Shown one piece after another: positions 11,601 through 38,505 of a stretch of DNA of 64,000 nt; position 1 is the stretch's first letter; each line of letters opens with the position of its first letter. The notes beneath the pieces are model-generated. The model had not been told where the DNA came from, searched no databases, and worked only from the letters and a program-made list of their open reading frames with translations. Made by a program: the position numbers and the translations under genes. The stretch comes from Nautilus pompilius (lineage: Eukaryota; Mollusca; Cephalopoda; Nautilida; Nautilidae), in the NCBI GenBank assembly GCA_018389105.1, contig JACATO010002127.1, forward strand, positions 806,001-870,000, in the 5' to 3' direction.

Positions 11601-11683
11601 TTAAATGATTTTAAAGTCACCTTGTCACTTTTCAATTATTCTTTCAAAAGTTAAACTTAAATAACAAAAAAATGTCGTCAAAT
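8641..11683. other. Intron 1, AT-rich segment
   Basis: No gene supported. Contains the CA/GA microsatellite at 9573-9602 and a slightly GC-richer patch at about 10975-11100 of unknown nature. Confidence 0.5.
9573..9602. repeat. (AC)n(AG)n microsatellite
   Basis: About ten AC units followed by about five AG units. Confidence 0.95.
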
Positions 11684-11685
11684 TA

Positions 11686-11795
11686 CACAGGTCAACAAAA
11701 TCTAACCCTTTCTTTTTTTAATCGAACTAAAATATATTTTCTTAGAGTACCTTTTTACGCTGAATTCGAATCTGTTTTTAGAATTTTTCTATATC
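11686..11795 (+). repeat. Left terminal inverted repeat
   Basis: About 110 bp inversely matching 13713-13810. Best blocks are the outer GGTCAACAAA, then ACGCTGAAT and AGAATTT.TCTATA. Several small indels separate the arms, so the copy is not recent. Confidence 0.85.
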
Positions 11796-11951
11796 GTATG
11801 GTTTTCAAGTTACAGAGGAATCAATTTTTACAATAAGTGTACAATAGTACATTCATAAATAAGGCTTTTATTGCACTTAGAAGAGGTAAAAGTTAGTTCA
11901 GAAATGTACAATGTATGTTTTTCGCCTATATTTGGCCTGTGGAACATCCCT

Positions 11952-13557
11952 CTATAGTGTCAAGCAATAGTTCGCCAACATGGAGGGGCTCCACTTTCCC
12001 TGGTACCGCTTTTCCATGTCCATAATGTCCTGATGGAATCGTTCTCCCTGCTCATCACTGACTGCCCCGAAATTTTCGGGGAAAAAATCAAGGTGTGAGT
12101 CTATTAAATAGATTTTTAGACTCATGTTGCACCCGAGAGCTTTGTATGATGTCAGCAGGTGTTCTACAACATCGCGGTAATTTTCTGCCTTGTGATTCCT
12201 CAAAAAATCGCTGCAAATTCTTTTAAAGGATAGCCATGCAGTTTCTTCACATTCATTAAGCTGATCATCGAAATCTTCATCACGAATAAGTTCCCTGATC
12301 TGGGTCCTACAAAAATACCCTCCTTTTTTTTGCATCACTGATCTTGGGGAATTTATTCGTGATGTAGGTAAATCCAGGGCCAGTTTTATCCATTGCTTTG
12401 ACTAAGTTCTTCATCAGCCCCAGTTTAATGTGCAAAGCAGGGCAGGAAGATAAATATTTTTAGGATCAACAAGTGGAGAGTTGATGACATTCTTCTTCCT
12501 TGGGGTCAGTGATTTTCGTGCTGGCCACACCTTTTGTTCGTAATGGTTTTTTTGTCTCTGCTGTCCCACTCGCAGAGGAAACAGCAGTACTTGATGTAGC
12601 CAAGTTGCATTTCGAGCAGCAGTGCCACAACGTTTAGGTCACCGCATATATTCCATTTAAATTCCCCATACTTGATTTTTTTCCAACAGAAGCTTCATGT
12701 TATCATACGATTCCTCCATGTCGGCTGCGTGAGCCACAGGAATGGAGGGGAACTTATTGCCGTTGTGGAGTAGAACGGCTTTTGTGCTTACTTTCGATGA
12801 GTCGATGAACAAGCGCCACTCATCTGTGTTGTATTCATGGCCGAGTTCCGCCATTACAGAACAAATGTCATTACAATACACCACACCATTTTCAACGGAG
12901 AAATAATCTTTAAAAATTTCATGCCGACGACGATAAAAACAAACTTTAGTATCCATATGGAGATAATTCCAGCCTTTTAACCTGGAGGCCAAAAGTTCGG
13001 CTTTCTGCTGAGACAAATCTAAATCGCAAACGAGATCATTAAGTTCTTCTTGAGTTATGAAATGCTGTTCATTTGATGAATGGCTTGGTTCGAATGTTGG
13101 ATCCATATCATCCTCTACTTGGTGTACTTTCTCATCATCAGACTCATCGTCACTAGGTGTCATGTTGTTTGGAGGCTCTGGCATAGGTAATTCCTGACTG
13201 CCTGGTACAGGCCTCATAGCAGATGGTAAATTAGGATGCTTCACAGTATGTTTGGTTCTTGATTATATACCCTTTATATCTGTCAGGCAGAAGTAGCAAT
13301 CCAATACGTGATCTTTGGGTTCTCTCCAAACCATAGGAACGGCAAAAGTCATACGGGATAAACCTCTTGCCCATTGTTTTGAGACGCGTGACACATTGAC
13401 GACAACAAATATGGGGCACCCAACTTTTATCCTGGTCACCCACTTTACAACCAAAGTAATGCTCATAGCATTTTTTAATGAGGGGTGTGAGAGAACATTT
13501 TTGGGATTTGAATGTCAAGTTTCCGCATCTGTAGCAGAAAGAATTCGGACTATTCAC
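11952..13557 (-). pseudogene. Broken transposase-like gene with N-terminal Cys-rich zinc finger
   Basis: It reads from ATG at 13557-13555 to TAG at 11954-11952, about 530 residues if continuous. Residues 1-65 carry CYRCG, a later Cys and CCRQC, a zinc-ribbon-like arrangement. An acidic linker follows (SDDESDDEK near 13135). The conserved core contains WRLFIDSSK, LLHNGNKFPSIP, NICGDLN, CCFLCEWDSRD, LHIKLGLMK and, near the C-terminus, LGCNMS, DFFPENFGAVS and QGERFHQD. I know this arrangement as an uncharacterised multicopy family in invertebrate genomes. Asp in FIDSS, Asp in GDLN and Glu in QGERF could form an RNase-H-fold DDE triad, with CCFLC as an inserted Cys pair; that is inference. Frame breaks lie near 13256-13262, in T7 at 12676-12682, in T7 at 12547-12553, near 12436-12446 and in T8 at 12324-12331. 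The gene sits inside the TIRs listed around it. Confidence 0.8.
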
Positions 13558-13712
13558 ACAGTTTCTCGGAATTATAATGGTGGATGAGTGTTACTCACAG
13601 CATGGTAAGGATCTGAAAGTACGACAGATATATTATTATTGACAGGAAACGGAAATAAGTACAAATATACAAACCAGGAGAAGAATTTCGGGGCTTCTCA
13701 CCCCAGCCCTGA

Positions 13713-13810
13713 GTTATAGACAAATTCTGGAAACATATTTGGATTCAGCGTGCAAAAGCACATAAGAAATAGTAATTTGTGTGTAATTAAAAAATCTTTG
13801 TTGACCAGTG
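13713..13810 (-). repeat. Right terminal inverted repeat
   Basis: Inverse partner of 11686-11795, ending GTTGACCAGTG at 13810. The arm overlaps the region upstream of the transposase-like ATG and may contain its promoter. Confidence 0.85.
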
Positions 13811-13812
13811 TA

Positions 13813-14610
13813 ATTATTTAAAAACAAATTAAAGATGGTGAATTAATACAGTAAAATTATTCTAAAAAACAAATAAAAGAAACTAATATTTAATGTTTGC
13901 GTAGTTTCTCAATAATATAACATTAAAGGTGAGTTTCTCTAATCAAATTTAAAAAAAAAAATAAAACCGTGCAGCAAATATTTTTTTCAGAAAATCTGAA
14001 ATTATTTTAATCAAGAAATTTCGATATATGATAATTTATTTCAGAATACAAAAACAGAGTGTTTGGTAGATTTCGATCACTGCCTTAAACACACTTTATC
14101 ATCCGGTAATGCCTTTTATATCACATAATAATAAATAAATTAATTAATAATTTATATGAACAGATAATAAAAACAAAAAACAACCTTTTAATTTTTCTAT
14201 TCCATAAAACAAAGTAGATATCTGGAGTGAGCTCAGTGTAGCTTTTCTAAAATCTTGACAGGGCCGACATAGATAAAACCCAGTTAAAAATTTAAGATTA
14301 ATTAAAGTGTCTGACCAGCGCACTGGTTGGGTGTCTTGTGTCAAATTGTCGGCGAGAATAATCGCGAGTTTAAAGAATAAAAAGAAGCGTACACATAAAA
14401 TACACATTAATAGCACATGAAACATATAAGGTAATTATTTATAGATGGTTATTCAAAATTCTGCTACAAAAATAAATAATATCTCGAACAGACTGCAAAT
14501 TACAATGTTGTTTTATAAATAGTGGTAGCAATAATTAATCGTAAAGGTGAGATTTTTATTTACCAGAATTTTTTTTACTGCAGCTGTTAGATGCTTTAAA
14601 ATTTCATATT

Positions 14611-37249: not shown

Positions 37250-38505
37250 TTAGGTCGTCACGAATGTTTTGTCGGTTTTTATATTATGTTAATTTAGGGT
37301 TAATTTTTTGCATGCTTGTGAAGGTGTACGTAGAAAAGTTATATATCGTTCTGTAACCTGTGCATTGGCATACATTATGCAAAATCTACGTTTTCAAAAA
37401 CCACAAAAAGGGATATTTTTTCAGGGTCCTGAGTGAAGCATGGATAGAAAAGTTTTTCGTGCCATTTTACTTCACGAGTTCAAACCAGGCCACAAAGCGA
37501 GCGAAGCAACTCGCCACATTAACAAGGATGGGGCGAGGACACAGCAAATGAGCGCACAGTACAACGATGATTTGCAAAGTTTCGATCAGGAGATGTGAGC
37601 CTCGAAGATAAGGAACGTGGTGGACGCCTTTCCAGCTGTGATGACGACCGTCAGAAGGCCTCATTTGAAGCCGATCCAAGAAAAACAGTGCAAGAAATTG
37701 CTGGAGAGTCACATAAGCACTGCAACTGTTTTCCGGCATCTTGACGTAATCGGCCAGGTGAAAAGGCTTGACAAATGGTTGCCTCACGAGTTGAATAAAC
37801 AACAACAAAATCGGCGATTTAGATCTGCTCTTCGCTTCTCGTAGGAAACAAAAATGACCCATTTCTTGACCGAATCATTACGTGTGATGAAAAATGGATC
37901 CTTTACGACAATCTAAAATGATCAGCACAGTGGCTCATGCGCCTAACCACATTCAAAACCCAGCATCCACCAAAGAAGGTCATGGTCACTGTCTGGTTTA
38001 CTGAAACTGATGTCATCTACTATAACTTCTTGCAACCTGGAGAAACCATCACAGCTTAAAGTCACTTCAATTAAACGTTGTTCATCAGAAACTCTCACAA
38101 CAATAACCGGTGTTGGTGAATCTAAGAGGCCCAACATGACATTGCTCGACCTCATGTTTCAGAAGTGACTCTTCAGAAGCTGAACACTTTGGAGTACCAA
38201 GTTCTCCCTCACAAATCCTATTCAACAGACCTTTTCCCCGCTGACCACCACCTTTGTAAACACCTTGATTGCTTCCTCCGTATGAAATTCTTCTCCAACC
38301 AAGCAGCAATTGAAACTGCCATCCAACAGTTTATCGACTCCAGAAATCCAGATTTTTCCAAAACCGTATAAATGCTCTTGTCACTCGATAAATGTGTATT
38401 CATTGTAATGGAACTTACTTTGATTAATAAACTTCACGTTCAGCAACGATATGAAGTCTCATCGTTGCTGTAAAAAAAATTGAGAAAACGTCTGTAAAGA
38501 CCTGA
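37250..38505 (+). mobile_element. mariner transposon, degenerate
   Basis: A 1256-bp element, normal mariner size. The left end is TTAGGTCGTCACGAATGTTT (37250). The right end, complemented, is TCAGGTCTTTACAGACGTTT. They share about 20 of the first 30 positions. TA lies on both sides (37248-37249, 38506-38507). The transposase on the + strand is broken, and the divergence between the ends indicates an old insertion. Confidence 0.88.
37440..38371 (+). pseudogene. mariner transposase, DD34D, broken
   Basis: Starts at ATG 37440 (MDRKVFRAILLHEFK, typical mariner N-terminus with the first helix-turn-helix). VSLEDKERGGRPSSCDDD marks the linker. ITCDEKWILYDN holds the first catalytic Asp (37886-37888). 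HDIARPHVSE holds the second (38138-38140). Exactly 34 residues later, the Asp of FPADHHLCKHLD (38243-38245) completes DD34D, the mariner signature. It ends at TAA 38369-38371. Damage includes a lost base near 37527, TGA at 37568-37570 where Trp is expected, a further frame change near 37840 (KQQQNRRFRSALRFS then a different frame), and scrambled sequence at about 38040-38110. It is not functional. Confidence 0.9.

Follow-up and report, generated by a model that had tools for sequence, protein, structure and literature searches.

A 2125-bp element in the genome of Nautilus pompilius, located in a 64-kb stretch of contig JACATO010002127.1 (positions 806,001 to 870,000; this whole stretch is called the window), is very probably a defunct copy of a once autonomous Chapaev3 transposon, whose enzyme falls within the CMC/CMCT group of DDE transposases. 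Chapaev3 is an already described group of cut-and-paste elements, among which this copy is unremarkable, and the Chapaev3 enzyme is distantly related to the one responsible for rearranging antibody genes. A first-pass annotation of the window had recognized a complete element here, and its borders are indeed exact and common to other copies. The same annotation had suggested a poorly described or new transposon group, and this suggestion is withdrawn for the window, as the target-site duplication (TSD), its neighboring bases, the termini, and the protein motifs match those published for Chapaev3 (excerpts of PMC4079192 and PMC4411706).

According to excerpts of PMC4079192, Chapaev3 or Chapaev elements generate TWA duplications (W being A or T), preceded by A and followed by T, carry CAC/GTG termini, and encode transposases with C(2)C, LH, and H(4)H motifs. 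The excerpts further state that TWA lay between A and T in every Chapaev3 examined and that paralogous empty sites confirm TWA. PMC4411706 (in part) also gives Chapaev3 marks and refers to a Repbase report from 2008 on this group.

Copies, borders, and target sites

A DNA search with the element across the genome (728 Mb in 2558 contigs), in which 40 of 393 candidates were scored so that copy counts are lower bounds, returned at least 51 matching stretches, with near-full copies being 88–92% identical to the element. Thirty-eight stretches were retrieved, thirty of which belong to the window's family (window copy included) and eight to a relative that is ~66% identical in DNA sequence. Both ends are present in 23 of the 30 family copies, and mean pairwise identity among 22 of these is 0.916 (range 0.895–0.940; one copy, L027, was excluded for its large nested insert). 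The window copy begins precisely with CAC and ends precisely with GTG (Table 1), and in other copies, too, the shared sequence breaks off at CAC/GTG, beyond which the flanks are unrelated. By hand count, CAC occurs at 19 of 25 left ends and GTG at 24 of 28 right ends.

The TA dinucleotides previously noted beside the element are present, but constitute only part of a 3-bp TWA duplication. Among the two-ended copies, TWA adjoins the left end in 22/23 and the right end in 21/23, an A precedes the left 3-mer in 20/23, and a T follows the right 3-mer in all 23. The left and right 3-mers are identical in 18 of the 23, the window copy being among the other five. Empty sites were sought by joining the flanks of all 23 two-ended copies and searching the genome with them (40 of 3899 candidates scored). 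For one copy lying inside a repeat (L012), the joined flanks matched across the junction at 11 other places among the scored candidates, and eight of these places were aligned. A single TTA is present in all eight, relative to the occupied CATTA-element-TTATCT, and one empty site (L085) has three additional bases a few positions rightward, outside the TTA. No place spanning both joined flanks was found for the other 22 copies among the 40 scored candidates. The single TTA of the empty sites shows insertion with a 3-bp duplication. A TA-only duplication in the manner of Tc1/mariner can be ruled out, given three identical bases in 18/23 copies and one TTA in the empty sites.

The terminal inverted repeats (TIRs), put at ~100 bp by the first-pass annotation, are strong in the terminal 14 nt and one inner block and weak beyond the terminal 14 nt. 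The outermost arms (11681-11699 and 13797-13815) are 95% complementary over 19 nt, and the inner arms (11714-11793 and 13715-13794) 70% over 80 nt. With up to three mismatches allowed, the two element ends are the only places in the window that match the end-containing 18-mer TWACACTGGTCAACAAAA; shuffled windows gave a mean of 0.33 matches, with two or more in 4 of 100 shuffles. Over 112 nt, gapped identity between the TIRs of the window copy is 0.59 (74 of 125 columns), the highest value among 30 shuffles being 0.52. Across the 23 copies the mean is 0.60 (range 0.50–0.65), and some individual copies do not rise above the best shuffle over all copies (0.57).

The transposase and its relatives

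The enclosed minus-strand gene is present but broken into four frames (Table 1). The catalytic triad, C(2)C, LH, and H(4)H motifs are retained across three frames, except for the first histidine of H(4)H, and the sequence blocks highlighted earlier (FIDSSK, GDL(N), CCFLC, and GERFHQD) can all be found there. The longest motif-bearing transposase frame in the 30 copies is only 289 amino acids (aa) in length, which implies an old family that is dead, judging by the copies sampled.

Table 1. Coordinates of the element and its parts within the window
Feature	Position	Strand	Basis or detail
Left TSD, TTA, preceded by A	11683-11685	+	sequence
Complete DNA transposon copy, very probably Chapaev3-type, 2125 bp	11686-13810		borders common to other copies
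Left TIR	11686-11793	+	outer core CACAGGTCAACAAA, inner block ACGCTGAAT
Transposase remnant, second His of H(4)H and catalytic Glu	11952-12401	-	open reading frame (ORF), motifs
GERFHQD (catalytic Glu)	12027-12047	-	motif
H(4)H, first His replaced by Tyr	12093-12110	-	motif
LH motif, LHIKLG	12418-12435	-	readable in a frame other than its neighbors'
Transposase remnant, second catalytic Asp and C(2)C	12506-12694	-	ORF, motifs
CCFLC (C(2)C)	12572-12586	-	motif
GDL (second catalytic Asp)	12635-12643	-	motif
Transposase remnant, acidic linker and first catalytic Asp	12657-13262	-	ORF, motif
FIDSSK (first catalytic Asp)	12792-12809	-	motif
Transposase remnant, N-terminal CxxC...HxC zinc-finger-like part (candidate Chapa domain)	13231-13590	-	ORF, alignment with relatives
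HIC	13405-13413	-	zinc-finger-like part
CYRCG	13522-13536	-	zinc-finger-like part
Right TIR	13715-13810	-	CACTGGTCAACAAA, read on - strand
Right TSD, TAA, followed by T	13811-13813	+	sequence

Better-preserved relatives exist in the same genome. A search with the core of one of them (L039), in which 120 of 6870 first-look candidates were scored, yielded at least 121 matches, and dozens of those ~50% identical to the query are stop-free and lie within frames of 330–634 aa. Two copies of one sister family (L077 and L078) share 99.4% identity across 2318 bp, possess a 582-aa frame each, and reside in different flanks. Both have CACAGGGGAACAAA ends with CAC/GTG, and their TSDs (TAA/TAA or TTA/TTA) are preceded by A and followed by T, so that the A-TWA-T target is found in two families. 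In the four long frames measured (L078, L076, L073, and L069), the motif spacing is D1-54-D2-19-C-3-C-46-LH and H-5-H-17-E, and an N-terminal CxxC...HxCxxxC-like pattern is seen in the aligned relatives. In a Chapaev3 protein this region would hold the Chapa zinc finger, which is of the RAG1 N-terminal type.

The DDE assignment of the first-pass annotation is supported by fold prediction, where the relatives are predicted to adopt a DDE/RNase H-like core resembling that of RAG1/Transib. In RAG1, the corresponding residues are D600, D708, C727, C730, H937, H942, and E962 (PMC4914335, in part); the D2-C, C-C, and H-H spacings equal those of the relatives, whereas D2-E is 198–199 here versus 254 in RAG1. 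A likely mechanism and a name can now be attached to a protein type that lacks a Pfam family at cut-off and had been regarded as "uncharacterised multicopy genes", and the type is tied to the RAG1/Transib fold.

Protein genes lacking TIRs, which the first-pass annotation would have counted against a transposon, were looked for in two samples: seven of the 30 family copies lack one or both ends as fetched, and TWA-flanked CAC/GTG pair candidates were located in two of 38 short loci of relatives (L049 and L055), as compared to none in mismatched controls. These 38 loci (L039–L076), some of which overlap one another, may stop before the ends or represent truncated copies.

Weighing the assignment

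Chapaev3 elements, including Repbase families and Merrow, Garfield, and Conan, share with the window's family A-TWA-T, CAC/GTG, and a DDE enzyme with C(2)C, LH, and H(4)H (PMC4079192, in part). The window's family has its own terminal sequence, CACWGGTCAACAAA, and, in a comparison of such marks, has been matched to no named family. We infer descent from Chapaev3 by matching marks to published descriptions, and a number of observations weigh against the assignment. The two TSDs of the window copy differ at the middle base, and the CAC/GTG termini, termed "invariable" in excerpts of PMC4079192, are altered here at six of the 25 left ends and four of the 28 right ends, which is read as decay. Likewise taken as decay is the loss of triad residues in some relatives, with Ala at D2 in L067 and Asn at D1 in L011 and L013. 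The D1-D2 spacing of 54 contrasts with 108 in RAG1, and the H-E spacing also differs. All Pfam matches stayed short of their cut-offs; RAG1_imp_bd appeared in one of 17 members of set A4 at E 0.069 (13.2 bits against a cut-off of 23.3) and in L033 at E 6, and its profile had no genomic match at E 0.001, control genomes being likewise silent. With Foldseek alone, nothing fell below E 1e-3 (P element 6e-3, RAG1 2e-2), fold alignments had a large root-mean-square deviation (4–6 Å), other HzTransib states scored just 8.9–11.1, and the N-terminal domain of the model is of low confidence. Finally, CAC/GTG ends and 3-bp TSDs also suit EnSpm elements (PMC12730594, in part).

An animal EnSpm/CACTA-type element of the same CMCT clade would indeed employ the same DDE chemistry, and excerpts of PMC12730594 describe CAC..GTG termini and 3-bp TSDs for EnSpm, with C(2)C and H(3-4)H throughout the clade, all of which are shared by the window's family. 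Since EnSpm has these features too, the strict A-TWA-T context, fixed in the window's family and met again in its sister family, is the chief sequence-level argument for Chapaev3. Moreover, no CACTA transposase model in Pfam matched 17 members of set A4 (E up to 1) or 10 further proteins (E up to 10), and we consider an EnSpm origin very improbable. The lack of any Pfam family at cut-off, together with a comparison made by published marks, would also suit a new CMCT-clade lineage, sister to Chapaev3 and having the same target preference. The decayed ends, lost triad residues, and weaker Transib states slightly lower our confidence in Chapaev3 and slightly raise the standing of this sister lineage, but every decidable Chapaev3 mark (TSD, neighbors, termini, and core motifs) is present, leaving it a very slim chance. 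A wholly new superfamily is rejected, as these Chapaev3 marks are found.

A multicopy host gene family lying by chance between inverted repeats would agree with the earlier impression of uncharacterised multicopy genes, but it is dismissed: the borders are CAC/GTG ends set in unrelated flanks, and the joined flanks of one copy are matched, with no element between them, at 11 paralogous places. The single-target empty sites and shared borders bear out the earlier proposal that the protein is part of a DNA transposon, and no profile of a host family was matched at cut-off. Transib elements generate a 5-bp TSD, unlike the 3 bp seen here in both copies and empty sites. PIF/Harbinger elements also duplicate TWA. 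No Harbinger transposase matched in Pfam among the proteins searched (17 members of set A4 and 10 further proteins), and the predicted fold points to RAG/Transib.

Other searches were similarly silent. The window's own transposase pieces matched only Fucose_iso_C in Pfam (E 0.19), below cut-off, and the best PDB sequence matches (E 0.17 and 0.81) were not to transposases. No relative was detected in phages (tblastn with the L039 core), viral contigs (set A3), or prokaryote genomes (L076). A literature search joining DNA transposon superfamily, TWA, and CACTG returned nothing, although it was not aimed at whether the window's family is already in print.

Possible mechanism and possible Chapaev3 radiation

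For the Chapaev3 transposon proposed here, the transposase most likely bound the CACWGGTCAACAAA ends, presumably through its N-terminal zinc finger. Excision would presumably have relied on a DDE active site of the RNase H kind, supported by a zinc site that is split into C2 and H2 halves, as is seen in RAG1 and Transib. The element would then have been joined to an ATWAT-like target through a staggered cut of 3 bp, leaving the TWA duplications.

Allowing up to two mismatches, TWACACTGGTCAACAAAA matches the genome 1811 + 1849 times, versus 191 + 157 for a reversed control, counts that may include short non-autonomous copies. Among the first 100 matches listed, two perfect ones (C117:1905069 and C123:1800013) lie ~0.46 kb from cores of relatives that are ~49% identical to the L039 query, by which the terminal sequence seems common to different families. 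Dozens of open Chapaev3-like frames occur in the genome, several with identical scores, suggesting that other families were recently active. It is conceivable, albeit rather unlikely, that N. pompilius harbors an unusually large Chapaev3 radiation with many frames open together, where families only ~50% identical share the terminal CACTGGTCAACAAAA and one transposase could still mobilize the ends of a dead family, the window copy included. The size of any such radiation and a possible cross-use of shared ends may yet prove surprising, and the genome would offer a good supply of open-framed Chapaev3 transposases for biochemistry.

Additional observations

A relative with an open 472-aa frame (G000:C2025:739787-740776) shares its contig with the window, which starts ~65 kb further on. 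Two of the seven end-lacking copies, L018 (C2034:735088) and L019 (C2034:438853), are on one contig and agree in match statistics, right ends, and frames, pointing to a large duplication, one duplicated copy, or an assembly duplicate. Nested insertions were seen in L027 (C1058:33714-38112), with frames that we take to resemble a mariner-type transposase from their motifs, and in L037 (C1354:195675-200522), where one frame is 355 aa and the frames presumably resemble, by motif, a non-long-terminal-repeat reverse transcriptase with RNase H. Within the window, the sole stop-to-stop frame of at least 130 aa besides two of the transposase pieces is found at 37467-37874.
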